A program made the position numbers and the translations under genes. The notes under the pieces were generated by a model, which saw only the letters and a list, made by a program, of their open reading frames with translations, was not told the DNA's origin and did no database searches. Source: an uncultured Victivallaceae bacterium (GTDB lineage: Bacteria > Verrucomicrobiota > Lentisphaeria > Victivallales > Victivallaceae). From it: a stretch of DNA of 64,000 nt. Positions 10,869 through 28,914 of the stretch are shown here, piece by piece; the first letter of the stretch is position 1, and the number at the start of each line of letters is the position of its first letter. Where the stretch lies: positions 1-64,000 of the forward strand of contig CALXXL010000010.1 of the NCBI GenBank assembly GCA_944392655.1. The letters run 5' to 3'.

Positions 10869-10874
10869 AATTTT

Positions 10875-11219: not shown

Positions 11220-11249
11220 GGTTTTCTTATTTAGCGTGAGACTTTGGGG

Positions 11250-11360: not shown

Positions 11361-11401
11361 TGGCTCACCTCCTTTCCGCCCTGTCGGGCTTGTCAAAAAA
11401 C

Positions 11402-11452: not shown

Positions 11453-11542
11453 TCAAGTGATAATTTAAAAAAAGTATGAAAAAATGATAAAAAAATCCCG
11501 TCCGAAAACTTGTCAGACGGGGGTGTGATTTATCTGGAAAAA

Positions 11543-11815: not shown

Positions 11816-11835
11816 ATCATTTCTCCTGTTATTTT

Positions 11836-13080: not shown

Positions 13081-13610
13081 CAGAAATGGAACTCCATCTG
13101 ACCGGAACTGCTTATTTTGCGGCGTGGTGCGGTGAACTCCCGTCTTGCCCGGCGGATTTTTTTGACGGTCATGGCCAGCAGTGCAGCGAGTTCGGGCGAT
13201 TTTCGGGCAACGTCGAGCATTTTCCGGTGCATCCCCTGCCGGGAAATACCGTGTATTCTGGCGATTTCGGCCACGGAATAACGTTTAGCCTCGCGGGATG
13301 GGGCGATGATTTCGGCGAGTATGCCCAGAGTGTAATCATCGAGATGCAGAATAAAATTGAGGAATCCGGCCAGATCGGCGGAGGTCTGAGTTGCGGAAGT
13401 CGGCTCTTCTTCCTCCTCCGGTGCATCGCCCGGAATGTGGCTGTAATCGGCGAGATCGGGCGCCCATCCGGCAACGCTGTCATAGTCCTGACCATAGAGC
13501 GGGCGGTTCATGGCCGGTTCGGTTTCGGTGCAGAGCCGGCACGCCTCCGCATATTCGCAGGGCTGACCACACTTATCGAATTTTCCCCAGCATTCCGGTG
13601 CGGCGTGCAT
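13080..13610 (-). CDS. HTH protein coupled to TerL, Cys-rich N-terminus
   Basis: 176 residues from ATG 13610 (MHAAPECWGKFDKCGQPCEY) with AAAGGAG upstream. The N-terminus has clustered Cys (ECWGKFDKCGQPC, then EACRLC), consistent with a zinc or Fe-S site. The acidic linker EEEEEP is followed by a helix-turn-helix at about 128-150 (YSVAEIARIHGISRQGMHRK) and a basic tail. Stop and TerL start overlap (TGATG). It may be a second, TerL-linked small terminase or a phage regulator; the better TerS candidate by sequence is at 20228-20686. Confidence 0.65.
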   Translation of the reverse strand: MHAAPECWGKFDKCGQPCEYAEACRLCTETEPAMNRPLYGQDYDSVAGWAPDLADYSHIPGDAPEEEEEPTSATQTSADLAGFLNFILHLDDYTLGILAEIIAPSREAKRYSVAEIARIHGISRQGMHRKMLDVARKSPELAALLAMTVKKIRRARREFTAPRRKISSSGQMEFHF

Positions 13611-13760
13611 TTGTTTCTCCTTTCCGGATATTAATTTACGACAAATTTTCCGGAATAGCAATACACAAAAGTTACAATTTTGTAACTTTTTTTAATCCCC
13701 GGAGAGCAAAAGTAAGCTTATGAAAAACACGCTCCTTTCCCTTTCCGGTTTTCAGGGCGT

Positions 13761-13794
13761 AAAAAAAGCCCCGTGCAATCAAGCATGGAGCTTT
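13761..13794 (-). terminator. Rho-independent terminator after the MuF cassette
   Basis: AAAGCTCCATGC-TTGATT-GCACGGGGCTTT (one mismatch and one wobble) followed by seven U on the minus strand. It ends the capsid/MuF transcript before the HTH-TerL unit begins. Confidence 0.8.
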
Positions 13795-13869
13795 GGGATA
13801 GACATTCAATCGCCGTTACCGCCCGTTTATGACGGTAAAAGGCCGGGCTTTAAAACTGATAGCTCCGGG

Positions 13870-13932
13870 TTATTCCTGCGGAACCTCTACCTGTCTGGCG
13901 TTCTCCCACGCATCAAGCTGTTCATCTGTCAT
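13870..13932 (-). CDS. Micro-ORF, 20 residues, coupled to the preceding small gene
   Basis: MTDEQLDAWENARQVEVPQE, starting in an ATGA overlap with the stop of the 65-residue gene and ending about 75 bases before the terminator. The overlap is the same kind used by the genes around it. The acidic composition fits an accessory to the cassette, but a 20-residue frame can arise by chance. Confidence 0.35.
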   Translation of the reverse strand: MTDEQLDAWENARQVEVPQE

Positions 13933-14126
13933 GAATTCAGGCTCTGCCCGAAAAGCACGACCGTTTTTTTATCTACAGCAATGTCTGCCGGACGACCTAT
14001 CACGACCCCATCCATATCCAATAAAAAAATCCATAAGTCATCAGTTTCATCCGCAATTCGGCTTAATGGTATACCGCTACCGTTAAAATCCTGTGCGATT
14101 TTAAATGCTTCTTTCAGGGTAATCAT
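13929..14126 (-). CDS. Small acidic protein, putative immunity factor
   Basis: 65 residues from ATG 14126 (MITLKEAFKIAQDFNGSGIP), with AGGAGA six bases upstream. Sequence has an N-terminal helix, then ADETDDLWIFLLDMDGVVIG and further strands, resembling small YrhB/SMI1-like immunity proteins in shape, although I cannot claim membership. It is the second small gene behind the MuF-zincin gene, in the same transcript, before the terminator. By location it is a candidate antidote to that protein. Confidence 0.55.
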   Translation of the reverse strand: MITLKEAFKIAQDFNGSGIPLSRIADETDDLWIFLLDMDGVVIGRPADIAVDKKTVVLFGQSLNS

Positions 14127-14169
14127 CTTCAATCTCCTGTGCAACACTCTTTTACAGTATCGCTGGCTG

Positions 14170-14403
14170 TCAATCTAAAATCGCATATCCACACTCAAAC
14201 ATGAGGAATCCTGGGTTTAGGGCTTCATGTAATTTCTTTTTCAGATCCTTCACCTCTGTTGCTTCCCGGATAACCGTGGCAACCACAGTTGAGTACTTAT
14301 CCCATCCATCAGGAGGGAAATGCTCTTTTCTATCAAGAAAATCATCATACTTAATGTGTGGAAATTTTTCCACAAGTATTTTTTCTAAATCATTTTCCGT
14401 CAT
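14170..14403 (-). CDS. Small protein overlapping the MuF-toxin gene, putative immunity factor
   Basis: 77 residues (MTENDLEKILVEKFPHIKYD). Its ATG overlaps the MuF stop (ATGA), so translation is probably coupled, the usual arrangement for toxin-immunity pairs. Mostly helical and charged, without membrane segment or known domain. As the first gene after a capsid protein with a zincin C-terminus, it is the leading candidate for neutralising that domain in the lysogen. Function is inferred from position. Confidence 0.6.
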   Translation of the reverse strand: MTENDLEKILVEKFPHIKYDDFLDRKEHFPPDGWDKYSTVVATVIREATEVKDLKKKLHEALNPGFLMFECGYAILD

Positions 14404-16313
14404 TTTGCATCCCTCATTTGCCTGTCAATATAATTCCAGATGTCAGGAAAATCAACTTGGAATACTATATCTTTTCGCAGCCATGCAGCTACGGCGTTGG
14501 CGTATGCCTCTCCATTTCCAAACGATCTTTCATACTCCTTTCTGCTGTGTCCTGCCCCATATCTTGCTTTTGTGATAGAGCCGACAGTGTCTTTGTACAT
14601 GGCCAGAATATACCGTTTTTCAGTATCAAGGTTATAATACTGCTCACCAAACAATCGTATGGAAAGTTCCTGAAAATAGTCGCCTGTATTCCATTCAGGA
14701 TGTTCTCCGTTCAGTGAGATGACGCCATCAAAAGCCTTGAGTTTGCTTTTATATTTTGTTCTGGCACGTTCTTTGAGACCGTTCCAATCGTTTTCACATG
14801 CTTTATTAAATTCTTCTGCCGCAATGTCGACGTCTCCCCAAGTGGATTTCCCCGGTTTAATCCGGCGGAATCTGGAATGACGATCCTGCCAATGTCCAAA
14901 TTCATGTTGTGCAGTTGAAACGGCGTGCCCGTTATTCATATCGACTTTTATATATTCCTTCTTTGAATCTGTTTCCCAGAAATAGCCGCCTCTTCCATTT
15001 GTGGAAACAATTTTCGGCGGTTTGCCGAGTTTGGCCATTGCGGGGGTGTAGGCATCGGCAAACGCTCCGGCTACTTCTTTTGAACCGCCGTCTTTGATGA
15101 TCTGCTGATACCAGGCGTCGCGCCGTTTATCGTAAGCGGCTTCCCACTGCGCCTGCCGTTTGGCACGGTGTTCCTCCGGAGTTTCCTTTTTCGCGGGCTG
15201 AACGGGCTGATTTGCCGGAGCCGCCGGTTGAGCCGGTCCATTCAGCGGCAGGTTTGGCTGAACCATTGCGGAAGTACCGTTTGCAGGCTTAGCCGTGGCT
15301 TGTGATAGCTTTTTCGGTGTTGCCGGGGTAGTTGACGCAGGTTGCTGTTTTTGCGCAGCGGAGGGGCTTTTCTTAGCTTTTTCGGGTTTCAGGCTTTTGC
15401 GGTACTTTTTCCACGCCTCCGGATTGTCCTTTTCCTCCCTGCCGGGAGAGTTGACGCCCTCTTTCGGGCGGCCGTCGGCAGAGAAATCCTCCTGGCGCGC
15501 GAATTCCCCGACTGCTACAAACGAGTGCGTGCAGTTCGGGTGGCACAACCCGGCGGCAGTCGCCTGCTCAACGGTCGGCAATCCCTCAGTCGCGCCGGAA
15601 ATCGACAGCAACCGATTCTCCCACACCGCACAGGCCGGACACGGGTTGCCGGAAACCGTCACCCGCACCACATCGTTGCCGTTGGCGGCGCAGGCGTCAA
15701 AATAGCTCTGCCGTCCGGCGTTGAGCAACACGGTACGGGAGAGCATCTTGCAGTATGATTCGTTGTCCCATACATGCCCGCCGGCATCGACAAACTGGAA
15801 CTTTTCCGGACGTGTAAGGATTTTCCCGAGCAGCATCTCTTTGGTCTGCTCCGCCGTCATGCCGTTGACTCCGGCCAGCCGGAATACATCGGCGGAGGCC
15901 TGCCGGATGAACGCCACGTCGGACTTGATCATATTCTGAGTCATTCCCGCGATGTGATTGAACGCATCCTTCTGTAAAAGTTCTATTTTGCTTTTGTCGA
16001 TTTTTCCCAGCACTGAATTACCGAGGTCATGGAGTGCGTCGAAGTAGTATCCTTCCGCCACATAAGGGATCGCCCGCTTCATCTCCGCAACGAATGATTC
16101 CTCAAGTTTCCCGTAGTTGCGTTCAAGCTCATTGATAAGCTCCACCAGGTACTTGCCTTCGGACGGATTACCTTTCGACAAAACAAATTTGCGCAGCTGA
16201 TTATTCAGCCACTCGCGCGCCTGACGATAGATTGCCGCCATATTTGCGGTAGTGGCGGTGATTTCCTTATTGGCTTTTTTGTGCTGATCTAAAGTTTTTA
16301 CTACGGGATTCAT
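14400..16313 (-). CDS. MuF-type minor capsid protein with C-terminal zincin (HEFGH) effector domain
   Basis: 637 residues. Residues 1-270 match phage minor capsid 2/MuF proteins, including NPCPACAVWENRLLSISG (C225, C228) and GLCHPNCTHSF (258-263). A Pro/Gln/Ala-rich linker spans about 312-378. The C-terminal domain (about 380-637) contains STAQHEFGHWQD with the zinc-protease motif HExxH at 470-474; E602 in NGEAYANAVAAW is a possible third ligand. Capsid-borne MuF proteins with exchangeable toxin tails are known in temperate phages, and this looks like a metallopeptidase version, which could be delivered with the DNA. No SD is evident at the ATG, which lies just after a terminator. Confidence 0.85.
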   Translation of the reverse strand: MNPVVKTLDQHKKANKEITATTANMAAIYRQAREWLNNQLRKFVLSKGNPSEGKYLVELINELERNYGKLEESFVAEMKRAIPYVAEGYYFDALHDLGNSVLGKIDKSKIELLQKDAFNHIAGMTQNMIKSDVAFIRQASADVFRLAGVNGMTAEQTKEMLLGKILTRPEKFQFVDAGGHVWDNESYCKMLSRTVLLNAGRQSYFDACAANGNDVVRVTVSGNPCPACAVWENRLLSISGATEGLPTVEQATAAGLCHPNCTHSFVAVGEFARQEDFSADGRPKEGVNSPGREEKDNPEAWKKYRKSLKPEKAKKSPSAAQKQQPASTTPATPKKLSQATAKPANGTSAMVQPNLPLNGPAQPAAPANQPVQPAKKETPEEHRAKRQAQWEAAYDKRRDAWYQQIIKDGGSKEVAGAFADAYTPAMAKLGKPPKIVSTNGRGGYFWETDSKKEYIKVDMNNGHAVSTAQHEFGHWQDRHSRFRRIKPGKSTWGDVDIAAEEFNKACENDWNGLKERARTKYKSKLKAFDGVISLNGEHPEWNTGDYFQELSIRLFGEQYYNLDTEKRYILAMYKDTVGSITKARYGAGHSRKEYERSFGNGEAYANAVAAWLRKDIVFQVDFPDIWNYIDRQMRDAK

Positions 16314-16320
16314 AATTGTT

Positions 16321-16345
16321 AAAAAAGCCGGACTCCATGTCCGGC
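16321..16345 (-). terminator. Rho-independent terminator just before the MuF gene
   Basis: GCCGGAC-ATGGA-GTCCGGC plus six U on the minus strand. The stem is perfect. The MuF ATG lies 7 bases after the U-run, so MuF must be expressed by read-through or antitermination, or the site reduces expression relative to the capsid genes. Confidence 0.8.
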
Positions 16346-16353
16346 CACTCTTG

Positions 16354-16731
16354 TTAACCTCTGCTTATTCTTACTGCTCCGGGGCGTCCCCGAAGATGTT
16401 CCAGGAAACGCTCCGCACGGGTTGAAATTGCCGGATTGCTCCGGCTGCGATAGGTGCGCGAACCGATACCGTCGACACTCTCGCTCTGCAACAGCGCCGA
16501 AACAGGATTAATCCCATCTCCCTGACTGGTCAACAGAAACACCGCCTGCTCGCATACCGCTCCGACGGCAAAAATATCGGCATAGTCCAGCTCCGTTCCG
16601 CCGAGTTCAAGGCTGATGTCCTGCTCCGCCATATTGAGAGCGGCTTTGCGGGAATCTTCCGGTGCGCCCATCCACTCGTCACGCAGCAGATGCAGCTGGA
16701 AATATTCGTCAGCTTTTTCGAGACTTAACAT
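16354..16731 (-). CDS. Putative head-completion/connector adaptor protein
   Basis: 125 residues from ATG 16731 (MLSLEKADEYFQLHLLRDEW), with GGAG ten bases before it; the longer frame overlaps the upstream gene out of frame. Helical, with ALNMAEQDISLELGGTELDYADIFAVGAVCEQAVFLL, as in the small alpha-helical adaptors (gp6/gp15-like) found downstream of capsid protein. It lies between MCP and MuF, and its stop is just before the terminator. Confidence 0.65.
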   Translation of the reverse strand: MLSLEKADEYFQLHLLRDEWMGAPEDSRKAALNMAEQDISLELGGTELDYADIFAVGAVCEQAVFLLTSQGDGINPVSALLQSESVDGIGSRTYRSRSNPAISTRAERFLEHLRGRPGAVRISRG

Positions 16732-16900
16732 TTCTGCGCTTCTCCGTTGTCTTCCTGCCGCCGTCCCGCTCCGCCACGATCTTCCGCACCTCCCCGTCGG
16801 ACAACCGCGCGTCGAAGCGCAACGCAGTGGCTGTTCCATTCCGGACAAACTGCACAACGCCGCGCCCGGCTATGCGCTGAATTGAGATGATTTTCACCAT
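16709..16900 (-). CDS. Small basic phage protein, 63 residues
   Basis: MVKIISIQRIAGRGVVQFVR, with AGGAG nine bases before the ATG at 16900. Strand-rich, then a basic C-terminus (GGRKTTEKRRNVKSRKS). The last 23 bases overlap the next gene. Position right after major capsid protein is common for a small head protein or joining factor; no family recognised. Confidence 0.6.
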   Translation of the reverse strand: MVKIISIQRIAGRGVVQFVRNGTATALRFDARLSDGEVRKIVAERDGGRKTTEKRRNVKSRKS

Positions 16901-16916
16901 TTTGCAATTCTCCTGT

Positions 16917-16961
16917 CTGATTCAGGCGGCTTTGACGTCATCTCCGCCGCCTGTGAATCAG
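16917..16961 (-). other. Long stem-loop between MCP and the next gene
   Basis: Arms CTGATTCaCAGGCGGC-type (16946-16961) and GCCGCCTGAATCAG (16917-16930), nearly perfect over 14 bp, with a 15-base loop. It is not followed by a U-run. It sits immediately 3' of the MCP stop, where it could protect MCP mRNA from 3' decay or act as a processing site. Confidence 0.5.
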
Positions 16962-16964
16962 GAG

Positions 16965-18173
16965 TTACTCGGTTACCGCCTTGGTGGGGATCGGGTTGTC
17001 TTCGGTGTTGGCGACAGTTACCGCGCCAAGATTAGCCTTAATCCCGGCGAGCGCGGTGGCGGACGGCATCACTCCTTTGATCCGGCAGAGCCGCTGTTTG
17101 GCGTTTTTGAACTCAAAGGTAAGTTCGCCGAGGGCCATGCGCTTTACACCGTCAAAACCTTTTGGCGTAGCGTCTTCGTCGCTGATGGCGCGTCCTTTGA
17201 GATTTGAGAGGCCGAAACCGGCGGGATCGATCACCCAGACGTCGGTATCCGGCACATCCGGGTCGGCCATGATGGTCATGCCGCGGCCGTTTACCTCATT
17301 GACGATAACCGCCACATACGCGCCGCGCTGGTTGTCGGACCGGAGGATCTGAAGCCGGTCTTTAAACTCGCAGGAGAGGACGCGGGCCTGTCCCGGCGAA
17401 CAGAGAATCTGGGTCGGATTTCCGCCCTCGCCCAGGATTGCCTGCGCGGCGTCGTTGACGATATAACTGTCGAGCCGGGCGCCGGCGGCATCAATCGCCA
17501 GTCCGCCAGCCTGAGTACCGAAAAAGTAGAGTCCGCCAGCTTCGCCGCGGGTAGTTCCGTTGGCCTCGACCCGGCGGCCGAAGAGCACAACCCGGTTCAG
17601 GTCGCGGGTAAGCTCCTGCATGGCGAAGGCGGTCTGCCGGTTAAGCTGATTGTCCACCGCACCATAGACGTCAATGGCCAGTGCCGAACCGGAGAGGATG
17701 ATCTCTTTGCGGAAGATCTGGGTGCAGTTGTATTCAGTTACGGACTGATGATAATTCTCTTCGCCGTCGCCGTTGCTGGTGGCTTCCGCCATCGGCGTTG
17801 AAACGATATTGAGGACATCGCCGCTTTCCGGAGCGGACTTGCTCGAACCGTTGGCGGCGGCCAGTTCAACCGTCACGGTAGTACCGGAAACGGAGGCGAC
17901 GCGGAAAAGCGCGGAATCATCCTTGACGGTCAGCAGAGTACCTACTTTGACTTTGGCGGCGTCGGCGGCGCTGACAGTGCAGGCCATGCCGGAAACGCTG
18001 GTCGCGGTGATGCTTCGGCCGGCAATCTGATCTTCCAGCCACTCGTGCTTCTGCTGGTGTGCCACGGCCACGGTGCCGAAATTACTGATAAAACGCGGTT
18101 CATCCTTAATAACTTCCGAAAGAATGTTTGAAAGATCCCGTTTTTTGTTGTTAAAACTATAAGTGTAAAGCAT
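16965..18173 (-). CDS. Major capsid protein, DUF5309/SU10-like
   Basis: 402 residues, start MLYTYSFNNKKRDLSNILSE with AAGGAGA upstream. The N-terminal arm is followed by an inserted small beta domain at about 55-125 (TATSVSGMACTVSAADAAKV), then the HK97-type core with GEENYHQSVTEYNCTQIFRK and NDAAQAILGEGGNPTQILCS, features of the SU10/DUF5309 capsid family. The C-terminus ends with TVANTEDNPIPTKAVTE. The gene follows scaffold and precedes small head proteins, the usual order. Confidence 0.88.
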   Translation of the reverse strand: MLYTYSFNNKKRDLSNILSEVIKDEPRFISNFGTVAVAHQQKHEWLEDQIAGRSITATSVSGMACTVSAADAAKVKVGTLLTVKDDSALFRVASVSGTTVTVELAAANGSSKSAPESGDVLNIVSTPMAEATSNGDGEENYHQSVTEYNCTQIFRKEIILSGSALAIDVYGAVDNQLNRQTAFAMQELTRDLNRVVLFGRRVEANGTTRGEAGGLYFFGTQAGGLAIDAAGARLDSYIVNDAAQAILGEGGNPTQILCSPGQARVLSCEFKDRLQILRSDNQRGAYVAVIVNEVNGRGMTIMADPDVPDTDVWVIDPAGFGLSNLKGRAISDEDATPKGFDGVKRMALGELTFEFKNAKQRLCRIKGVMPSATALAGIKANLGAVTVANTEDNPIPTKAVTE

Positions 18174-18196
18174 TTTTATCTCCTTTTTGGGTTGGG

Positions 18197-18781
18197 TTAT
18201 TTAATTTCAGGTGCATTGTTGAGTTGTTCAATTATCGAGCCGATCCGGTCGCCGGGTTCCGGTTTCGGCTCCGGCTGACCTTTGGGCGGATCGGCGGGAC
18301 CGGCTCCCGGCTTAATGTCGGCGGCAAAATATTTCGGCTGTTCCTTTTTGAGCTTTTCGACAAACTCGCTTGTTTTCGCCTCATCCGAGAGGTCAACGCC
18401 GTTCTTTTCGGCGAGGTAGTCGAGATAGTCCGCATCCTCGCACTTGTGTTTCGCGGCCAATTCGCTGATGCGGTTGCGGCGGATCAACGCGGCGAGTTCT
18501 TTTTTCGCGTTATCGCGCTCAGTTTCGGCGGTCCGACGGGCCTCTTCGGAGGTCTTGAGCTTCGCTTCGGCGGCTTCCGCGCGCTTCTTGTAGCGTTCGG
18601 CTTCGGTCAACTTCTCCTGTTCGGCGGCGTCGAGCTTCTCCTGCGCCTCCTTGAGCTTCGCTTCGGCATTGTCGGCTCTGGTGGAAAGAGCGTCCGGATC
18701 GAACCGTTCAAGTTCGGCCTTTTCCAGTGCGTTGAGCTCCTCGCCCCTGGCGGCCTTTTTGATGATTTCACTGATTGTCAT
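18197..18781 (-). CDS. Capsid scaffolding protein
   Basis: 194 residues from ATG 18781 (MTISEIIKKAARGEELNALE), SD AAGGAG. Nearly all coiled coil at 35-105 (Glu/Ala/Lys heptads), then an acidic-hydrophobic helix and a proline-rich C-terminal tail (PADPPKGQPEPKPEPGD). This is the typical composition of phage scaffolds that assemble the procapsid and leave. Its start overlaps the portal C-terminus by 14 bases. A longer frame reaching 19036 is out-of-frame shadow of portal. Confidence 0.85.
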   Translation of the reverse strand: MTISEIIKKAARGEELNALEKAELERFDPDALSTRADNAEAKLKEAQEKLDAAEQEKLTEAERYKKRAEAAEAKLKTSEEARRTAETERDNAKKELAALIRRNRISELAAKHKCEDADYLDYLAEKNGVDLSDEAKTSEFVEKLKKEQPKYFAADIKPGAGPADPPKGQPEPKPEPGDRIGSIIEQLNNAPEIK

Positions 18782-20231
18782 TCTGAATATCTCCTTCGTT
18801 GTTGTCATCTGGATTACCATTGTCAATATTAAAGCCGAACTCCGGCACTGGAGCGGGTTGCAGATCTTCGATTTCCGCAAGCAAAGCAGTTTTGCGATCG
18901 TCCGGAATACTGCCGATAGCATCGAGCAGTTCAACTGCCACACCGAGCGCGGCCTTACGGAACTCGATCCCGGCGTCGGGGATGTTCGAGAGCTGCAAAA
19001 GTCCGGCGATATTTTTCTCGAGATCGCGGACGGCAAATTTGCGATTGTAGGTCACCTCCGGCACTGGTACGGCAGAATCCCATAATTTCATGATCTCCCA
19101 AGCCCGCAGTTCCGCCTGTTCGAGCAGGTCGGCACGATTGGCGAGAAACTGGGTCACATTCTGGAAGTCCCACGCTTTACTTTCCGCCGTCTGCGCCTCT
19201 CTGCTCTGGCTCTGAATCGCCAGACCGACAACATCATACAATTCCTGTTTAAGCCGGGTGTTTTCGGCGCGGATGGTGGAGGTTTCAACGCCGGACGGCG
19301 AGATGTAACGGCTGATTCCCTTTTCCTCCACACTTTCAATCAATGCGGCGGAACGGGCGACTACCGCGGCAAAACTGCCGGATTCCTCCTCATTTTTACG
19401 GGGCTGGATTTTCTCAGCGCCACGGGCGAAACTCTCGGAGACGACCAGCATCCCGAACATCTGCTTGACCACGTTCATCTGCGCCTCGGATTCGTTGTTC
19501 AATATCGCGTCGGAAATCCGGACAACATCCTCAAACCAGTGGTTCGCCTCAATGCCGTAGCCGTCCGGCTCGATGAGTTCCACCAGCGGGATTACTCCGG
19601 TGGGGTTGTCGCCCTCAGTGATTGCTCCGGTCAGCGGATCAAACAGCCGCCACTTTTCACGAGTCCAGAGCCGGATGCGCGACACGGTACGCCGGCCTAT
19701 GTCCGGATCCTGGTCATAAGTGTGTTTCTCTTCCACTTTAGCCCAGATGAGCCGGCGGTCGGGTCCATACGCCCAGTCCAGCACGGACAATGGAGACAAC
19801 GCCACACAATAGGGGCGCAGCCGCTCCCGTTCGGCGCGCTCGCGGTCAACCGGCCCGTCGAACGTTGGTGATCCGACAAACAGCCATGCGCGTCCGTAGA
19901 TATTGAGCAGGGTGGAAACCTGCCGCATCACCTCGTTGACGCGCAAGCCGGAGCGGCTCCAATCCTCTACCAAATCCGGATCTGCGCCGGAGCGGACGGG
20001 ATCAACCGCCAAAGCATACTGAGTGATACGCTGAGCGATATTGCGCGGATAGTTGAAGTAGTAGGCGCGGCGGAGGCGCTCCTCAAATTCAAGCGGGATT
20101 TCGGAGACGTGGCGAATCAATGCCCGGTGGATGTAATCGGTTCCGCCGGAATAGGCGTCACGGGCGCGTTTCCAGGCAAATTCGTGATCGCTGTATTCAG
20201 GGTGGCGGGTATTAAAGGTAAAAACAGTCAC
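18768..20231 (-). CDS. Portal protein
   Basis: 487 residues. The N-terminus (MTVFTFNTRHPEYSDHEFAW), the central helix and wing strands (RIRLWTREKWRLFDPLTGAI), and the long C-terminal helix region with QSQSREAQTAESKAWDFQNV fit the SPP1/gp6-type portal superfamily. The C-terminus is acidic and Asn-rich (FNIDNGNPDDNNEGD). It forms the dodecameric DNA gate at one capsid vertex. It overlaps the TerS-like gene at its start by 4 bases and the scaffold at its end by 14. Confidence 0.88.
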   Translation of the reverse strand: MTVFTFNTRHPEYSDHEFAWKRARDAYSGGTDYIHRALIRHVSEIPLEFEERLRRAYYFNYPRNIAQRITQYALAVDPVRSGADPDLVEDWSRSGLRVNEVMRQVSTLLNIYGRAWLFVGSPTFDGPVDRERAERERLRPYCVALSPLSVLDWAYGPDRRLIWAKVEEKHTYDQDPDIGRRTVSRIRLWTREKWRLFDPLTGAITEGDNPTGVIPLVELIEPDGYGIEANHWFEDVVRISDAILNNESEAQMNVVKQMFGMLVVSESFARGAEKIQPRKNEEESGSFAAVVARSAALIESVEEKGISRYISPSGVETSTIRAENTRLKQELYDVVGLAIQSQSREAQTAESKAWDFQNVTQFLANRADLLEQAELRAWEIMKLWDSAVPVPEVTYNRKFAVRDLEKNIAGLLQLSNIPDAGIEFRKAALGVAVELLDAIGSIPDDRKTALLAEIEDLQPAPVPEFGFNIDNGNPDDNNEGDIQNDNQ

Positions 20232-20686
20232 AATCCTTTTTCCTCCTCAATAAGTTTTATGGGTACACTGCCGCCCTCAATGCCGAGTTCGTGACGGTCG
20301 CGCCAGCGTTCGGGGCGGCGGTTTTTAAGCCAGAATATGGCGGCGGTGGTATCGGGCGGCACTTCGCGGGTGACGACGGTGCGGAACTGCCGCTGATTAT
20401 CATTGCTGTCGGCGTAAGAGTTGGTTTTTACCTCCTCATAGGAGTAGCCGGTAGCCCGGCGGAAGAGGGCGGCTTCGACGGCGTCGTCGGCATCGACCTT
20501 GCCCCGTTTTAAGGCTTCCATCAATTCCGGATAGAGGTTTTTGTATACGTTGAAACTGGATACGGCAACTCCGAGTTTGCGGCATATCTCCTCTTCGGTC
20601 GCCCCCATGCGGCAAAGATGCTCAATCCGCGCGAGGTGCGGCTTTACAAACGCCTCATATTTAGATTTTCTTCCGATTCCCGGCAT
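20228..20686 (-). CDS. Terminase small subunit-like protein
   Basis: 152 residues. Residues 30-55 form an HTH (GATEEEICRKLGVAVSSFNV). The C-terminal half contains the pattern PPDTTAAIFWLKNRRPERWR, typical of phage small terminases of this type. Stop and portal start overlap (ATGA). The SD (GGAG) is in the 3' arm of a terminator-like hairpin directly before the ATG. TerL is about 7 kb further on, so packaging subunits are separated here. Confidence 0.78.
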   Translation of the reverse strand: MPGIGRKSKYEAFVKPHLARIEHLCRMGATEEEICRKLGVAVSSFNVYKNLYPELMEALKRGKVDADDAVEAALFRRATGYSYEEVKTNSYADSNDNQRQFRTVVTREVPPDTTAAIFWLKNRRPERWRDRHELGIEGGSVPIKLIEEEKGL

Positions 20687-20718
20687 AAAAAAAGCTCCGA
20701 TGTTTTACACACCGGAGC
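20687..20718 (-). terminator. Terminator hairpin carrying the SD of the TerS-like gene
   Basis: GCTCCGGTG-TGTAAAA-CATCGGAGC, a 9-bp stem with one G-U pair on the minus strand, followed by seven U and immediately the AUG. It would end the RloB-gene transcript while exposing the capsid operon to read-through control. A TTGACA begins just before it. Confidence 0.75.
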
Positions 20719-20751
20719 CGGATTGTCAACAGAAAAAAAATACTGGCAAAA

Positions 20752-21318
20752 TTATGATCGAAAGAAAGATTCTATAATTTCAAAAACATTTCCCACAGAT
20801 TTCGGCGTTGAATAAAGCTTTTTTGCTCTTCGGGTTGCCTTAAGCACCCGCTCCTTGGTCACAAAACCGTCAGGAATATGCTTCTTCTTTCCACTCAACA
20901 GATTGCTATATTGTTCTTGGGCGGCGTTGTCACCTTCAACATGCAGCTTAAGCCAATCTTCAAACCGCCGCTCACTAATTGCTAAATGATACTTTCCTTC
21001 CTTGTTTTCTTGCATCCATTTTCTGATGTTTTCAATTTTTTCTTCCTTCCAATCGTCACGATCTATGACGATCCACGCCTCATCGTTTTCACTAAATGGA
21101 GCGTCTTTTAAGTAATCTTTCATGCGAGTCAATACTGCTAGGGGAGAACTTCCGTCTCCAGGATTTTCAACGATGTGGAAACGTGTGGTTTTGCTCATGC
21201 TAGTCAATCTAGTGAAATATTCCGGTTCGGTAGATTCCCCCTCGGCGGAAATTACGATAACCCGCTGGGATTGGCAAGTGGACCGTTTATTAAGTTCATC
21301 CCATCTGCTCATATTCAA
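20752..21318 (-). CDS. RloB/AbiLii-like Toprim defence protein
   Basis: 188 residues. The start is TTG 21318 (GAGG seven bases upstream, overlapping the ATPase stop) or ATG 21312. Residues 20-35 hold IVISAEGESTEPEYF and 81-90 AWIVIDRDDW: the Glu and DxD elements of a Toprim-like nuclease as in RloB. The rest is helical. RloB proteins pair with AAA ATPases in abortive-infection systems such as AbiL, and here the two genes are fused by a short overlap. The likely role is nuclease effector against competing phages. AT-rich compared with phage genes around it. Confidence 0.83.
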   Translation of the reverse strand: MNMSRWDELNKRSTCQSQRVIVISAEGESTEPEYFTRLTSMSKTTRFHIVENPGDGSSPLAVLTRMKDYLKDAPFSENDEAWIVIDRDDWKEEKIENIRKWMQENKEGKYHLAISERRFEDWLKLHVEGDNAAQEQYSNLLSGKKKHIPDGFVTKERVLKATRRAKKLYSTPKSVGNVFEIIESFFRS

Positions 21319-22634
21319 TCTCTTTCCTCGGGCTCTAGGAGAGAACCGAACCTGGTAAACAATGGAAGGCCACCCAACACCCCGTGCAAATACAATTTGC
21401 GAATATCTTTATCGTAACGGACATCATTGCACGACGGAGAACACAAAACTGAAACGCCACATTCATTACGTTCTACGATCCACATTTCATCACGCCGGAA
21501 TAAACTTTGATCCATCAACATGAGATCATGAGTGGAGAATATCAATTGAGAGCGCGATGCTTTGGAACAATGCGATAAATAGATTCCAAGCAGATGATAA
21601 GATAACAAATAATGCCAACTGCGATCTAATTCATCTATGATATATACTTTACGGGAATCACCGTGTTCCAGATCAATAAAAGCCGGAAGGATATCTATTA
21701 GGCGAAGTGATCCATCAGACTCTTGCGTTAGGTCAAATTTTACCAAATTACCATTGCTGTCCTCATGATAGGAAACCATCTTTTTAACAGTAAGTTTATC
21801 ATCTTGCTTACTGATCAGAAAACGTAATCCATTAAAATTAAGCTCCATGGATTGCCCATTATTCAACTTCTCTTTTATTTCAGATTCCGACTCTAGGAAT
21901 GGAGGCAACGAAGCAAAAGAAATTTCCTCCATATCCAGCTTGCAAATTCCGGTATCAAGTTGTTTAAGCAATGTAGCAAGATGTTCTGTGTCAGTCGGCT
22001 TGGAAGAAAACATGTATCCAAAACCACTAAACAAAGTATCAGGACCTATCAATATCAACTGATTACGGAACCAATTGTATGGATCTCTCAGTTGCGGCAC
22101 ACGCAGCCCGGCAACTCCGAGGAAAAACTGATTTTTTCCGATGATACGTGCAAATGCTTTGGCATCTCCGTCTTTTTCAATGGAATCCAAATGAACGTTA
22201 TCATTGCGATAATATAATTGGGTCTCTCCGCTAATTTTAACCACGCTCAACGATTCTTCGAGCACTGCATTTTTGGACAAAATGACATGAAAGGTATAAA
22301 TCTTATTATCGGCAGCCAAAAATGTAAGAGTAACTTCAAGCGGGTTTGCGGAAGTTTTCTGGGACAATGCAAATCCTTCAAATGGAAACTCTTTCTCTTC
22401 ATCACGAAGAGGACTGACTACCATTCGCTTTAAGAACGTCAACAACTTAAACAAATTCGTTTTCCCAGAGGCATTTCCTCCATACAGTACAGCAACTGGA
22501 GAGACGTTGAGCACAGGAGATTTCCGAATTTGCGGCACACGTTTTTTTAATTGTCGTTCGCTTGTGGCAACAAGAGAAAAATCTGTCTCTTCTTTGAAAG
22601 ACATCCAATTTTTAAACTTTAAATCGATAATCAT
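21315..22634 (-). CDS. RloA/AbiLi-like AAA ATPase (AAA_15/21 type)
   Basis: 439 residues. Walker A YGGNASGKTN at 51-60, ABC-like signature region SDGSLRLIDILPAFIDLEHG, Walker B KVYIIDELDRS and a switch histidine in LIFSTHDLMLMD near the C-terminus, as in OLD/RloA-type SMC-like ATPases. With the RloB gene it forms a two-gene defence unit, probably sensing infection and activating the nuclease. It has its own promoter (22664-22692) and SD (AAGGATAT), and terminators on both sides, hence a moron rather than part of the capsid operon. Confidence 0.85.
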   Translation of the reverse strand: MIIDLKFKNWMSFKEETDFSLVATSERQLKKRVPQIRKSPVLNVSPVAVLYGGNASGKTNLFKLLTFLKRMVVSPLRDEEKEFPFEGFALSQKTSANPLEVTLTFLAADNKIYTFHVILSKNAVLEESLSVVKISGETQLYYRNDNVHLDSIEKDGDAKAFARIIGKNQFFLGVAGLRVPQLRDPYNWFRNQLILIGPDTLFSGFGYMFSSKPTDTEHLATLLKQLDTGICKLDMEEISFASLPPFLESESEIKEKLNNGQSMELNFNGLRFLISKQDDKLTVKKMVSYHEDSNGNLVKFDLTQESDGSLRLIDILPAFIDLEHGDSRKVYIIDELDRSWHYLLSYHLLGIYLSHCSKASRSQLIFSTHDLMLMDQSLFRRDEMWIVERNECGVSVLCSPSCNDVRYDKDIRKLYLHGVLGGLPLFTRFGSLLEPEERD

Positions 22635-22663
22635 AATAAATATATCCTTTCTTAATTGTTATT

Positions 22664-22692
22664 ATAATAACATACAAAGACTAAAAAATCAA
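22664..22692 (-). promoter_or_regulatory. Promoter of the RloA/RloB pair
   Basis: TTGATT (22687-22692) and TATTAT (22664-22669) on the minus strand, spacing 17, about 30 bases before the ATPase start. The -10 lies within a run TATTATAAT. This would give the defence genes constitutive expression in the lysogen. Confidence 0.6.
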
Positions 22693-22693
22693 C

Positions 22694-22780
22694 ATGAAAG
22701 AGAAAAAATCTCTTTAAACTGCAATTCTGTCAACCATTATTGCAAAAAAACAAATATCTCAACGATTTTTTCTCTTTCAT
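22694..22780. repeat. 17-bp perfect inverted repeat upstream of the defence genes
   Basis: ATGAAAGAGAAAAAATC at 22694-22710 and its reverse complement at 22764-22780, separated by 53 bases. The left arm also folds on itself (AAAGAG/CTCTTT). The arms bracket a short AT-rich segment just upstream of the promoter. Nothing coding is visible inside. Confidence 0.7.
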
Positions 22781-22828
22781 CACGACAGCACATCACAAAT
22801 CAGCCAAAATGGATCATCATCTCCAGCA

Positions 22829-22843
22829 CTTGTATAATACAAG
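22829..22843. promoter_or_regulatory. Palindrome CTTGTAT-A-ATACAAG
   Basis: A 15-bp palindrome between the terminator at 22857-22885 and the inverted repeat of the defence module. It contains TATAAT/TATTAT on both strands, so it can be a promoter element or an operator. Confidence 0.35.
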
Positions 22844-22856
22844 CTTTAAATAACAA

Positions 22857-22885
22857 GAAATCCGGCCAGAAAAAGACCGGATTTC
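22857..22885 (-). terminator. Terminator after the 58-residue phage gene
   Basis: GAAATCCGG/CCGGATTTC, 9-bp perfect stem with an 11-base loop, followed on the minus strand by TTGTTATTT. It separates the early replication-type genes from the defence module. Confidence 0.75.
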
Positions 22886-22913
22886 TCTTTTCTTTAAAAA
22901 TCGTCTTTGAGCT

Positions 22914-23090
22914 TTAAAGCTCCGGAAATTCGCAGAACAGATCATGAGTTTCGTCCGCGGCGGAAAGCAAATAATCGTCAACTGCCTTTTCCGCCTGTTT
23001 GCTTGCCTGCAAATACTTTTTATCCCGTGTCCGGAAATAGTTCTTCTGGGCGGTTCGCATTTCCAGCACCAGCTGTTCAAATTCATTCAT
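22914..23090 (-). CDS. Small helical phage protein, 58 residues
   Basis: ATG 23090 (MNEFEQLVLEMRTAQKNYFR), nine bases after AGGAG; a GTG two codons earlier is too close to the SD. Helical and charged with an EKAVDDYL segment; this pattern (MRTAQKNYFRTRDKKYL) is common in small phage proteins of unknown function. Overlaps the upstream gene by 8 bases. Confidence 0.65.
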   Translation of the reverse strand: MNEFEQLVLEMRTAQKNYFRTRDKKYLQASKQAEKAVDDYLLSAADETHDLFCEFPEL

Positions 23091-23463
23091 TTTCACTTGC
23101 TCCTTTTAACGCTTTTTTTGCCCGATCCAACCAACCGCCCGGATCCCCAGGAACATTCCACGGACCGCCCGGCTTACCGTAGTGTTCCACCGCTTCGCTC
23201 AATGCCTCGCGCAACTGACAGCATTGGGCTTCAAGTTCCGTAATGTGTTCCGGCTTCTTTGCATCAAGAATTTTACTTTTGATTATTATCTGCGCCATCT
23301 GGCATAATTCAATCGCAGTGCACTGCGCGGCATAAAGATCGTTCAGCGCTTTTTTGGCATTACTTTGTGCGGCATAGAGCTGATTCAGTTTATCATCCAG
23401 CTGATTTAAATCTCCAACATCATCAGGTTTAATCGCTCTTGTGGAATCTGAATTATAAATCAT
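23083..23463 (-). CDS. Phage protein, helical, unknown
   Basis: 126 residues with SD GGAGG. N-terminal two-thirds are coiled-coil-like with a near-repeat LYAAQSNAKKALNDLYAAQC; the C-terminus is rich in Gly, Pro and Trp (YGKPGGPWNVPGDPGGW) and then basic. Grouped with small early phage genes. No family recognised. Confidence 0.6.
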   Translation of the reverse strand: MIYNSDSTRAIKPDDVGDLNQLDDKLNQLYAAQSNAKKALNDLYAAQCTAIELCQMAQIIIKSKILDAKKPEHITELEAQCCQLREALSEAVEHYGKPGGPWNVPGDPGGWLDRAKKALKGASENE

Positions 23464-23483
23464 GGTCTTTCCTCCGTTTAAAA

Positions 23484-23615
23484 TTAAAAGATTATCCCGA
23501 TCACCAGTAAAGCAGTCACCAGCGCAACGCCGGAAACAAGACCATAAAGAAAAAAAGTGATCTTGGCATCTAAAAGTTCGCGCCGGTAACAGCGCATTAT
23601 TATGTTATTAAGCAT
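23484..23615 (-). CDS. Small single-pass membrane protein
   Basis: 43 residues (MLNNIIMRCYRRELLDAKIT), AAGGA before the ATG. Residues 20-43 form one hydrophobic helix (FFLYGLVSGVALVTALLVIG) with a positive N-terminal part, so the N-terminus faces the cytoplasm. It lies in the early region, not next to a lysin, so a holin role is not supported. Confidence 0.6.
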   Translation of the reverse strand: MLNNIIMRCYRRELLDAKITFFLYGLVSGVALVTALLVIGIIF

Positions 23616-23626
23616 TGTTCATCCTT

Positions 23627-24397
23627 TCAAAAATTAAAAAGCAGTTGTCCGGCACTGTCTTCAACAGGGATCGAGGTATTAGCCGCCGGCTGTGCTACCT
23701 TTTGCCCCTCGCCCATTATCGTTTTTACGGAATTAAGCGCTCTGCGCCAGTGAAACCGCTCCGGCCATGCTCCGAGATAATATCCGGCGGTCAGCCACTC
23801 TTCGCGGCACTCGAGGAGTAACGTGTTCCCCCAGATTACCGCCGCCGGAATCGCCAAAAGCGAGAGTTGAATATATGCCATATTGCAACATTTCCTGTCG
23901 ACATCCTGAGCAACGGCAAAAAAGACGTTTACCGGGTTGAATCCGGCCTGTTTAATCTCTTCGGCCGCGGCAATCACCATGCCGCCAGCTCCGCAGGTCG
24001 GCTCGTTAAGTTCGATGAATCCGTGTTCCCTGATTTGATCCTCAACCCCGGTGAGCGACATTTTCGCCATCATCCGCGAAACGCTGAACGGAGTAAAGAA
24101 TTGCCCCTTGTACTGGTTGTGCAGTTCGAGCTCATGAAAACATTCTCCCAGGAAATCACGAGGTTCATCGGTCAACGCGCTTACGGTAATGGCAAGCAGT
24201 TCGGCGAATTGCGACTGTTCGGCCGGTTCATACCGGTTAATGAGGGTCAAATACTTTTCCTCATTTTCCGTTTTTCGTTCGAACGCCTGCCTGAGCGACA
24301 GAGCCGCGATCTCGCAGAAGTCGGAAAACACCTCGTGCCGGTTGTATTTCCATGCGAGCTTTCCGATGATACTGCAGAACTCCCCCTTGTGATCCAT
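23627..24397 (-). CDS. N-6 adenine methylase-like protein lacking motif IV
   Basis: 256 residues with SD GGGAGG. Helical N-terminus resembling HsdM-type methylases, YKGQFFTPFSVSRMM at about 96-110, then AdoMet motif I ELNEPTCGAGGM at 129-140 and an acidic motif II region (VAQDVDRKC). The catalytic (N/D)PP(Y/F) expected about 50 residues later is absent; the corresponding place reads IPAAVIWGNTLLLE. Such short HsdM-like proteins occur in prophages. It may bind AdoMet or DNA without methylating, or pair with another subunit. Confidence 0.8.
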   Translation of the reverse strand: MDHKGEFCSIIGKLAWKYNRHEVFSDFCEIAALSLRQAFERKTENEEKYLTLINRYEPAEQSQFAELLAITVSALTDEPRDFLGECFHELELHNQYKGQFFTPFSVSRMMAKMSLTGVEDQIREHGFIELNEPTCGAGGMVIAAAEEIKQAGFNPVNVFFAVAQDVDRKCCNMAYIQLSLLAIPAAVIWGNTLLLECREEWLTAGYYLGAWPERFHWRRALNSVKTIMGEGQKVAQPAANTSIPVEDSAGQLLFNF

Positions 24398-24410
24398 GAG
24401 CTTGCCCTCC

Positions 24411-25911
24411 CTACTTTCCCGCCTCCGCCGCCTTGCGGGCCGCGAGGAGCGATTTCGGTTCGGGGATCGCCTCGACAGCTTTGTTCAGATACAAGGCGTC
24501 CCAGTCGATTCCGATCAGCTTGCAAAAGGTTTCCGCGCGTTCGGAGGATACCGTGTTCAGTGTCCCGCCGACGTCTTCCCGGAGCTTTTCGCAGATCTTC
24601 GACTGGATATTCTTCCAGAAGAGTTGTATCAGGGCTTCGTTTGTCTTGTATTCCCGTTTGAGTTGCTGCACCGAATCCGCCAGCTTCCGGCTGGACCAGG
24701 AAATCCCGCTGTTGTAACCATAAATCACCAGCAACCGCAGAATGGTCTCGGTTGCCGGCGGGGGGAACCCGGTTTCATTTCCCCGCTGCATATCGTTGCG
24801 CAGGTTTTCCACCGCCAGCCGCCGGCGCTTTGCGATGAGTTCCGCCTCGCGTTCGGCAAGCGTTTTGACCTTTTTCCCGGAGACGTTGACGGCCGGAGTT
24901 CCATCCTCGTTTTTCGGGTTGATCGGCCGTGCCTGATTGCTGTACGCTTTCATCCGGCAGAATTTGCCGGCATCGGTTCCCCAGACGCAGAAGGCGTTGG
25001 TTTTTCCTTTGCTCTTCCTGAGCCGCCAGATCTGTTCCACTCCAGGAATGCGGTCAAACAGCTCCCGGGCTTCCGTTCCATATCTCGGCAGGTCGTCGCA
25101 GTAGAGGTAGAACGGCTCCGCGTCTGGATCAGCGGCGAGATTTGCACGGATCTCTTCGATTTTTTTTCAGGATGTGACGGATCATCTTCAGCTCGAAACA
25201 GGATCGGTCGAGACAATTGTCGCCTTTTTCTTCCAGCTCCGGGAACAGGAGTTCCGCCGCGCCGGAGCGTTTGGGGCAGTTCAGGCAATCCGCGGTGTCG
25301 AACAGAGCGGATTTCAGCGCGGTATAATCATATTCGAGCCGTCTTCTGATTTCACCGACAGAGTAGCTTCCGATCGTAGAGTCAATCCAGTTTTCGACCT
25401 CCTCCTGAATCTCCCGTGGCTGCTTGGCGATGAATTCGAGCTTGGCCGGCGTCCACTGCGAATATTTTTCCGGATTTTCCAGCACCGTTTTCCAGGCCGG
25501 GGAGAGGTTGGTCAGATTGAGGCGCAATGCGACGTATTGCGGCGTTTTTCCGAGCATCGCGGCGAGTTCCTGAATCGTGTGCCCGCTCTTAAGCTGGTTG
25601 AACTGCTCGACCTCCTCCGCCAGCGCCAGGTTGGCACGGTGGAAGTTTTCGCAGAATGCCGCCAATTCCGGATCGGCATCGCAAATAACATACTGTGATC
25701 CTTGCAGTTTTTCCCACCCCAGGCGTTGCAATGCCCGGAAGCGTCTGCGTCCGGCAACCACCCGGTAACGGCCGTTTCCCTCGTCTTTCAGCGCAAGCGG
25801 TTGGATCAATCCCACCGCCGCGATATTCGCCGCCAGCTCTTCGATGCCCGACATCTTTCTATTGTCGGTACATTCAATATCGATAATCTTCAGCTCATTC
25901 ATTTTGTGCAT
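24411..25911 (-). pseudogene. ParB/Spo0J-like phage protein split by a frameshift
   Basis: The first frame (ATG 25911) encodes ParB N-terminal (about 5-95: SGIEELAANIAAVGLIQPLA, VVAGRRRFRALQRLGW), an HTH at about 110-135, and a CLNCPKRSG...CLDRSCF zinc-like site, then stops at 25129. At A8 (25160-25167) a shift of +1, or loss of one A, joins it in frame to IEEIRANLAADPDAEPFYLY and on to the 209-residue frame ending at 24411, giving about 500 residues. The bridging codons have no stop, so the gene was once, or still is, one unit. Cause may be real mutation, slippage, or a homopolymer error. Confidence 0.8.
25160..25167 (-). other. A8 homopolymer at the ParB-like frame break
   Basis: Eight A residues in the coding strand (CTG AAA AAA AAT). 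Seven would restore one continuous frame. The site is prone to polymerase slippage and to sequencing error. Confidence 0.75.
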
Positions 25912-26202
25912 TCATCCTTTCCGGTTGTTTTTTTCGTTCAGTAGCTTTTCGAGTTCTGCCTGAATTTTCGCGCATCGTGTAAAGCGGTCTGGCGATAAAT
26001 CGTCGAGAAAGAACTCCGCTTTAAAATCCGGCTTGTAGGGCATGCTCCAGCCGTCATAGTACACATCCACCAAGAACAAGTTGACGTGACCGGAAAAATT
26101 GACAAACACGTCGTGTTCGGTCTCGCGGTTGACCTGCAAAGCCAGACGCATAATCCTGACAATGCAGTCATCTATTTTTTTGGGTGATTCTGATTTTTTC
26201 AT
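25912..26202 (-). CDS. Small phage protein, unknown
   Basis: 96 residues from ATG 26202, which overlaps the upstream stop (ATGA). Sequence MKKSESPKKIDDCIVRIMRL then VNRETEHDVFVNFSGHVNLF and a Trp/Tyr-rich middle. The pattern of strand and helix recurs in small proteins next to ParB-like phage genes; no function known. The longer frame to 26277 has no SD. Confidence 0.6.
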   Translation of the reverse strand: MKKSESPKKIDDCIVRIMRLALQVNRETEHDVFVNFSGHVNLFLVDVYYDGWSMPYKPDFKAEFFLDDLSPDRFTRCAKIQAELEKLLNEKNNRKG

Positions 26203-26666
26203 GATAAAATTTTTCCTTTTTTGCGTTGATATATTGCTACCGTCGTCCCCTGCCCCTTGAACTGCCGGTACTCCCATTGTAACCCGCTCTTTTCCGCATC
26301 CGACGCGGTTCGGAGGATTTTTTCCGCAATGGCGTCCCGGAGAAACTTGAAGGAGGCAACCAGATTGTCCATATCAAGCGGAAGCCTGGAATATCCGCGG
26401 CAAAGAACGATGATAAACTCCGCATCATCTCGCGGCACAAAGTCTTGTCCTTCAGGTTTGCCGTCCAGTGCCGAGAGAGGATCCGGTTCAAACTTGGGCT
26501 TCTGTATTCCGGCAGGCTGATTCTGCCCAACAACCTGAAGTTTTTCATCACGGCTTTTTCCGCATTTCCGGCAGCGACCGGAGGCGGTGTACCACACCCC
26601 GTCGCAGCACTCCCAGAGTCCGAGCGCGACCGGATCGATTCTGTTTTTTCTCTTTTTTTCATTCAA
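26199..26666 (-). CDS. RusA-like/early phage protein with N-terminal zinc knuckle
   Basis: 155 residues. TTG start at 26666 with AGGAGG seven bases upstream; the overlapping ATG frame gives an unconvincing basic peptide. N-terminal CC...CRKC (about 20-36) suggests a zinc site. The second half, SRLPLDMDNLVASFKFLRDA followed by LQWEYRQFKGQGTTVAIYQR, resembles RusA-type Holliday-junction resolvase patterns (DxDN then a helix). Start lies right after the primase stop, in the replication module. Confidence 0.6.
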   Translation of the reverse strand: MNEKKRKNRIDPVALGLWECCDGVWYTASGRCRKCGKSRDEKLQVVGQNQPAGIQKPKFEPDPLSALDGKPEGQDFVPRDDAEFIIVLCRGYSRLPLDMDNLVASFKFLRDAIAEKILRTASDAEKSGLQWEYRQFKGQGTTVAIYQRKKGKILS

Positions 26667-26668
26667 TT

Positions 26669-28360
26669 TTATTCCTCCTTGTCGGGTTCAGGATAAGCCG
26701 GTACAATAGAAAACCTTCCGGTTTTCCGGTCCCACTCAAATTCCTGGTGCGTATTTGCCCGACCAATGTGTTTATTTTTGATCTTCAAAATGTGGACCTG
26801 AACAATGTTGCTCTTTGCGGTGGTATCTCGCCAAAGGCTGAGGCCATTGTCAGTTTTATTGGCAAAGTTCGCTGATCCGGCGATATCGTAAAGCGAGGCA
26901 ACCGGGTACTTTTTTGACCGCTCATCCTTTTTGAGTTTAGTCGGGTGCGCCACCAGAAATACCAACACCCCATTCTGCCGAGCGAATTTCCTCAACCGCG
27001 CCATGAAATAGCTGATGTATTCGGTCTCAGTCATCCACTGGGTACGGGTATGCTCAATCTCATTATATGGATCGAGCACAAACATTTTCACCCCATACCG
27101 GGCCACGCATACCTGCGCCGCAGAGAGCAGTTCGTCAAGCGTCGGAGTTTTATCCGCATCCGGCAGGATAACCTTGATATACTCATCGACTCTGGCGAGC
27201 ATTGTCTCCATCTCCTGCCAGCTCATCCGCTCTTCGGCTGTCCCGAAAAACGGGCGTCCGCTCAATTTTTCGGCGAAATTCGCAAAAAGGTTTTCAACCG
27301 GCAGCATCTCCGGACTGAATACCGCCGCTTTCCAGTTATGCAGCTGAATCGCATTTACCACCAGTTGGTGAACGAACTCTGATTTGCCGGACTGCGGAAT
27401 ACCGGTAACGATATTAACTGATCCCGGCTGAAAAGTGAAGCAGCGGTCAAATGCCGGATAGCCGGTAGTTAAGCCCCGCGGTTTGCCCTTGCGGTAATAG
27501 TTCTCGATGTTCGCCCGGAATTCCGCCATGCCACGCAGTCCGGGAATCGGCGCAGGTGTGGCCATGGTTACGGCTTTTACCACAGCACTGGAGCCGCATT
27601 TGGTCAATACCTCATTGATGTCTTTACAACCGTCGGGATAGGCAATGAGTTTGCATTTGGCCGGACCGATCCGGTCGAGCAACTCTTTTTCGAGCCGCAA
27701 TCCCGGCTCATCCTTATCGGTCACCAGCACCACCGATTCCGCGTTTTCCAATATCTCAAGGCAATTGGCCACACACTCAAGTTTTTTGGTTGCGTCAGAA
27801 TCATTCGGCTGCGGCGCACCCTTATCCACTGAAACGGCGGTAGGGAAGCCGCACTCGATCAACGTCAGCGCATCGATCTCGCCCTCAGTGATATAAACCG
27901 TGTCAGCCTTTTTACAGGCATCAATATTCCACAAGCACGGCTCCGGATCCTTTTCCTGCGCCATATTTTTACGGGCGTCGCGATACTTCACATTAAGCAG
28001 TTCGCCATCCCGGTAATATGGAAAGGCGATGCAGAGCGTCTCTTCGCCGGTGCCGGGCAGGTAATGCCACGCAGAACAGACTTTGGCCTTGATCAGCGTA
28101 GCCGGCGATATTCCGCGAGTGGCGAAATAGTCGACAATCCGCTTATCAATATCTTTGCCAACCCGTTCCGGAGCCGGACGCCGGTAACTCTTCCGCGGAG
28201 CAACCACCGGAGTATCGTCGGAGAGTTTGCCAGACCAGCCGCAATTGTGGCAGTGCCACATACCGGTTTCGCCGTTGACAGACAAACAGGGATCTTTAGG
28301 CTTTTTCCGGGTAGCGCTGCACTTCGGGCAGAACAGATTGAACAAGAAGCGCTTAATCAA
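26669..28360 (-). CDS. Primase-helicase (T7 gp4-like), probably N-terminally truncated
   Basis: 563 residues. Zinc ribbon C11-xx-C14 and C37-xx-C40 (MWHCHNCGWSG). Toprim core VYITEGEIDAL (155-165) and LVTDKDEPG (212-220). Helicase Walker A TGIPQSGKS (319-327) and a DnaB-like core with VLDPYNE and LVAHPTKLKKDE. It synthesises primers and unwinds DNA at the phage fork. Only ten residues precede the first zinc cysteine and the start is a TTG without SD, whereas relatives carry 20-40 more. The start region coincides with the recombinase remnant, so the 5' end is probably lost. Confidence 0.88.
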   Translation of the reverse strand: MIKRFLFNLFCPKCSATRKKPKDPCLSVNGETGMWHCHNCGWSGKLSDDTPVVAPRKSYRRPAPERVGKDIDKRIVDYFATRGISPATLIKAKVCSAWHYLPGTGEETLCIAFPYYRDGELLNVKYRDARKNMAQEKDPEPCLWNIDACKKADTVYITEGEIDALTLIECGFPTAVSVDKGAPQPNDSDATKKLECVANCLEILENAESVVLVTDKDEPGLRLEKELLDRIGPAKCKLIAYPDGCKDINEVLTKCGSSAVVKAVTMATPAPIPGLRGMAEFRANIENYYRKGKPRGLTTGYPAFDRCFTFQPGSVNIVTGIPQSGKSEFVHQLVVNAIQLHNWKAAVFSPEMLPVENLFANFAEKLSGRPFFGTAEERMSWQEMETMLARVDEYIKVILPDADKTPTLDELLSAAQVCVARYGVKMFVLDPYNEIEHTRTQWMTETEYISYFMARLRKFARQNGVLVFLVAHPTKLKKDERSKKYPVASLYDIAGSANFANKTDNGLSLWRDTTAKSNIVQVHILKIKNKHIGRANTHQEFEWDRKTGRFSIVPAYPEPDKEE

Positions 28361-28873
28361 CTACGTAGTTTGAAGCAAAAAATTGATTACCGGATAATAA
28401 AAGCAAGCATTGCCGAGGCGGAACAGCGTCGTCTGGAATACATAAACACACTGCGTCCGGACTTAAACAATTGCCGAGAGGCGCTACGGCAGGCAAAATC
28501 CGAACGAGAAAAGATAATACACCTGCTTCTCGGAGACCATCTTTCAGAGGCGAATGTGCCGATTTTCAACGCCAGACTTGAAGCAGTCAGTAAAGAAATT
28601 GACCGGCTGAAAACTCGAATTGATCAACTGGATGCAGAGTGTAACACAATTGGTTATTCTCCGGACCAAGCAGTTTCTTTCATCCGTGAGCTTGAAACAC
28701 TTGCGGATATTATGAAATATATTCCTGAAGATTTCGAAAAACAACGTCGGATATTGGTAACTCATATTCAAAAAATAGAAGAACAAGCGGACGGCTCATT
28801 TCGCTTCTATTTCAATTACAGTTCGCCTAACTGTAAAGATTGGCAACCCCGCCAGGATTCGAACCTAGACTAA
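28322..28873 (+). pseudogene. C-terminal remnant of a large serine recombinase (integrase)
   Basis: A plus-strand frame of about 183 residues starting near AEQIEQEALNQLRSLKQ, with a long coiled coil (EYINTLRPDLNNCREALRQA; RLEAVSKEIDRLKTRIDQLD) and the ending FIRELETLADIMKYIPEDFE, as in the C-terminal domain of large serine recombinases after the zinc ribbon. The catalytic Ser domain is missing; the frame continues leftward only as antisense of primase. It terminates inside tRNA-Gln (WQPRQDSNLD), as integrases do at their att site. This supports this end as the prophage attachment side. Confidence 0.75.
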
Positions 28874-28914
28874 ATGAACCAAAATCACTTGTGCTACCAT
28901 TACACCACGGGGTT
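28841..28914 (-). tRNA. tRNA-Gln (anticodon TTG)
   Basis: Cloverleaf on the minus strand: acceptor AACCCCG/CGGGGTT, D-arm GTGT-AATGGTA-GCAC, anticodon stem AGTGA/TCATT with loop TTTTGGT (anticodon TTG), T-arm CTAGG-TTCGAAT-CCTGG, discriminator G and encoded CCA. Length 74 with CCA. It is the likely integration target of the prophage, because the recombinase frame ends inside it. Confidence 0.95.

Follow-up and report, generated by a model that had tools for sequence, protein, structure and literature searches.

Grounding of prophages through loss of the recombinase is already known, and DLP12, Rac, Qin, e14 and CPZ-55 of E. coli are examples of such grounded or cryptic elements (PMC6379469). 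The window analyzed here, a stretch of 64,000 nucleotides from an uncultured Victivallaceae bacterium, carries a prophage apparently of the same kind: as in the E. coli elements, which lost an att site or the recombinase for excision, an integrated phage genome has been kept (PMC6379469). Unlike in those elements, the recombinase belongs to the large serine recombinase (LSR) type, the host is of Lentisphaeria type, and the lesion apparently consists of one microhomology deletion that also took the repressor and early genes. The integrase gene of DLP12 reportedly overlaps the tRNA gene argU, and the LSR gene of the window likewise overlaps a tRNA gene. A related idea is the "deletion shielding" of integrase genes at prophage borders, a hypothesis discussed in PMC7744054, by which deletions harming the adjoining bacterial gene are selected against and recombinase sequence at the border is kept. 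Our case resembles this; however, PMC7744054 deals with integrase genes that are retained, whereas the window keeps only the border-proximal C-terminal third, and its shielding gene would be a tRNA. The process, prophage decay, is ordinary and known, but it is cleanly documented here and provides, for a group that has received little study, an example of grounding resolved to the base that can be compared to an intact relative.

The prophage spans window positions 1-28850 and continues on contig C9 (positions 1-3619); the window is the start of contig C10, which begins inside the prophage. The part remaining on C10 up to the lesion (1..28324, minus strand) was delimited with PHROGs, Pfam, PADLOC and by collinearity with the relative. 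It comprises, among others, genes for tail, tape measure, a Rha-type regulator, the large and small terminase subunits, major head protein, portal, an AbiL pair, an N6 methylase, a ParB-like protein and a primase. Long open frames are present for the terminases, portal, major head protein and tape measure. The prophage ends on the other side at the start of C9, where it carries a holin-like gene, a ParB-like gene and a third gene that has 86% identity to its counterpart in the relative. By comparison with the relative, the gap between C10:1 and C9:1 takes in part of the tail/lysis region.

The element is bounded by a 15-bp exact repeat, AAGATTGGCAACCCC, located on the recombinase side at 28836..28850 (plus strand) and as reverse complement at C9:3605-3619. 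Both att cores survive, and an element that has kept them together with structural genes collinear with a phage, having lost all of its excision recombinase except LSR residues ~308-493, is probably a "grounded" prophage. The phage arm adjoining the C9 core, GATAGACATAAACGAAC, matches GATAGACCTAAACGAAC of the relative, and the arm GATAGAC[AC]TAAACGAAC adjoining the att core is common to both elements. The repeat sits at the 3' end of tRNA-Gln(TTG), the integration target, which ARAGORN found intact at 28841..28914 (minus strand). A DNA search revealed no second tRNA-Gln(TTG) in the assembly; besides it, only a tRNA-Gln(CTG) on C4 was present. The DNA downstream of the tRNA is ordinary host DNA and conserved in further genomes of the family, including one from the same genus; homology to these genomes begins at the tRNA 3' end, at about 28835-28844. 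None of the relatives tried showed an empty attB extending into the C9 flank, host homology beginning at the tRNA end.

At 28322..28873 (plus strand), the window carries a recombinase stub whose homology to a 498-aa LSR, with 64-66% identity over ~185 aa, is confined to residues 308-493. The Resolvase (4-152), Recombinase (179-252) and Zn-ribbon (271-322) domains of the intact protein are missing from it, and what remains is the coiled-coil C-terminus, recognizable by homology as the remnant of an LSR, and the tail. Its last codons read into tRNA-Gln(TTG). The N-terminal resolvase domain with the catalytic serine is absent from the window and from the whole genome: a Pfam domain search of the genome gave no match for PF00239 or PF07508, and the intact LSR used as query matched only the stub. 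Viral contigs searched with the stub returned no match, and with the intact LSR of the relative they returned only its own record. Annotators should regard the 269-aa plus-strand ORF at 28064-28873 as a remnant read into a tRNA gene, and likewise similar "hypothetical proteins" ending in ...RQDSN.

On the minus strand, a TOPRIM/DnaB-like primase-helicase (26669..28360; Pfam DnaB_C and Toprim) meets the stub head to head. The 582-aa primase of the relative was matched with 86% identity from its residue 21 (window 28336) onward; ahead of the common stretch it has 20 N-terminal residues, MSHFSDFGIDLPDHFSGDRK..., which the window lacks. Antisense LSR DNA supplies the first residues of the window primase, MIKRFLFN. 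The TTG start of the primase also lies there, and CAAACTACGTAG upstream of it contains no Shine-Dalgarno sequence. None of the relatives found has the same short primase start, and a scan of the genome collection with the primase gave no match.

The primase query recovered the collinear phage IMG/VR UViG 2786546706_000002 (G078), which matches the window on both sides of the seam, the LSR C-termini being 66% identical. It differs from the window in having a complete early and lysogeny module: upstream of its primase lie ~6 kb of early genes encoding SSB, a Rad52-like protein, a PD-(D/E)XK nuclease, an HTH protein and an S24-type repressor, followed by the full 498-aa LSR. The latter carries Resolvase, Recombinase and Zn_ribbon_recom domains, which does not agree with a tRNA-inserted prophage of the tyrosine recombinase type. 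The LSR of G078 reads into the 3' part of a tRNA-Asn, as recognized by eye, instead of tRNA-Gln. In another member of the family, too, an S24-type repressor gene is located a short distance upstream of the LSR on the tRNA side. A search with a full-LSR alignment gave five relatives, all of them Victivallaceae/Lentisphaeria MAGs, which suggests the same group for the host.

Comparison by blastn located the junction precisely. Window 26557-28330 aligned with G078 35905-37696 (L026 15905-17696) and window 28325-28865 with G078 44239-44791 (L024 2240-2792). Primase homology stops at 28330 and LSR homology begins at 28325; the two blocks overlap by the 6 nt CGGGCA (28325..28330), which is found in both parental sequences of the relative. 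As compared to G078, ~6.55 kb (~6548 bp, G078 37697-44244) are missing, although the parental sequences were taken from a relative 86% and 66% identical, respectively, and both the microhomology and the deletion length are therefore approximate for the lineage of the window. For random breakpoints within the same two genes, the probability of an overlap of at least 6 nt is 0.0016, which points to microhomology-mediated illegitimate recombination. The seam has the features of such a deletion: it shows a few common nucleotides and no long repeat, and the two parental sequences stand in order in the intact relative. A preliminary description had reported, at 28315-28345, a plus-strand recombinase reduced to its C-terminal coiled coil and a minus-strand primase truncated at its 5' end with a TTG start lacking a Shine-Dalgarno sequence; it had both 5' ends meeting at one point, with neither a repressor nor a catalytic recombinase domain nor a control region between them, and it proposed a deletion. 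All of this agrees with the present data: the exact seam falls within that interval, no sequence lies between the two fragments, and the intact relative holds the full missing module exactly at this position.

We consider it very probable that a single ~6.5 kb deletion in an integrated temperate phage left this junction as its scar, and that it was caused by illegitimate recombination between two short direct repeats. The primase gene would have contained one copy of CGGGCA, close to codon 21, and the LSR gene a second one, immediately past the zinc ribbon. Recombination between them would have removed the primase start, the early replication and recombination genes, the catalytic part of the LSR, and the repressor with its control region. 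Self-excision would thereby be lost and the prophage grounded; as judged from the sequence, the deletion presumably locks it in place. The simultaneous loss of repressor, early control region and recombinase may have made the deletion tolerable to the cell. The deletion would have stopped short of tRNA-Gln(TTG), which overlaps the LSR gene at its own 3' end, and the stub probably remains because deletions reaching into the tRNA were purged. Losing this tRNA would presumably do harm, as the DNA search gave no other tRNA-Gln(TTG). This suggests the rule that prophage deletions beside tRNA targets should end in the recombinase gene and spare the tRNA.

The same seam could also have arisen from several successive deletions. 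A chimeric assembly, which the preliminary description had named as an alternative, would mean that two parts of the same phage were misjoined and that the real chromosome keeps the intact module. The source is indeed a MAG-type assembly (2.34 Mb, 37 contigs, 95% complete; C10 has 90,678 bp), and the break of the prophage between C10:1 and C9:1 indicates that the element was not assembled perfectly. However, the joined ends have only ~6 nt in common. De Bruijn assemblers need a k-mer overlap far longer than this, which speaks against a join through a repeat, and a chimera formed via a long repeat was ruled out. Furthermore, the two sides come from one phage and have the correct order and orientation, and the missing early module was found in the assembly neither by DNA search nor by Pfam domains nor in a survey of contig ends, which turned up the other end of the prophage on C9. 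In the assembly, the early region of G078 matched with its primase end only, plus short partial stretches, the best being 53 bp from the start of its SSB gene, which matched on C3. Since the assembly is of MAG type, binning could have dropped a copy of the module; taken together, we regard a chimera as improbable.

It is very improbable that the recombinase C-terminus acts as an independent small functional protein, e.g., an LSR decoy or regulator. The stub is open over 183 codons and resembles C-terminal-only open frames of 148-168 aa in the family genome G062, but a recent deletion would leave an open frame of such length equally. Its frame has no start codon at the seam and extends upstream through antisense primase DNA. 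Stubs do occur elsewhere in the host family; however, most of them are broken remnants next to tRNAs, very short copies or copies at the end of a contig, and LSR C-terminal stubs were therefore set aside as a conserved stand-alone protein. The deletion remains the preferred reading of the junction.

A model of the LSR C-terminus gave 22 matches in 15 of 78 host-family genomes. Long frames (499-556 aa) contain seven of the matches, one of them with an internal TGA, and all but one of the seven are located at a tRNA or tmRNA. The rest are either truncated or broken or lie at a contig end, most of them likewise ending in a tRNA. Intact copies of this LSR family and truncated or broken ones are about equally frequent in the host family. 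Based on this pattern, tRNA-targeting LSR prophages of the host family might regularly be grounded by deletions that stop in the LSR owing to shielding by the tRNA end, leaving a trail of decapitated recombinases that records past integrations, and the deletion in the window might have been favored by the AbiL defence pair; we put this forward as a tentative and rather doubtful extension. Nine such loci with truncated or broken LSR C-termini, most beside tRNA genes and spread over several genomes of the host family, were noted individually. The stub on G062:C10 comes after genes that are phage-like by position; PHROGs recognized neither of the two tested, so that this parallel is unproven. At six loci, genes of the LSR family end at or in tRNA-Asn, tRNA-Ala, tRNA-Arg or tmRNA; these are related recombinases with many RNA-gene targets.

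Several additional features of the prophage were observed. The ParB-like gene at 24411..25911 (minus strand), which encodes 504 aa in G078, is frameshifted and split at an A8 tract (25160-25167), which could reflect a genuine lesion, slippage or an error in the sequence. Pfam and PADLOC revealed an AbiLi/AbiLii-like pair, consisting of an AAA_21 ATPase and RloB (20752-22634, minus strand), beside the terminase small subunit gene, and this pair is predicted to be a defence cargo of the prophage. At the same place, G078 has different genes, one for a protein of 321 aa and an HNH-like ORF of 113 aa, as judged by eye. The Rha-type phage regulatory protein (Phage_pRha) is encoded at 9622-10749 (minus strand) in the late region near the gene of the terminase large subunit. 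The record of the relative starts at its other end with an ORF resembling a tyrosine recombinase by eye (L025:1-1368, minus strand), possibly a neighboring element or a second integrase. The host DNA near the other end of the prophage contains, at C9:6314-17749, a repetitive ORF of 3811 aa that appeared adhesin- or autotransporter-like by eye.
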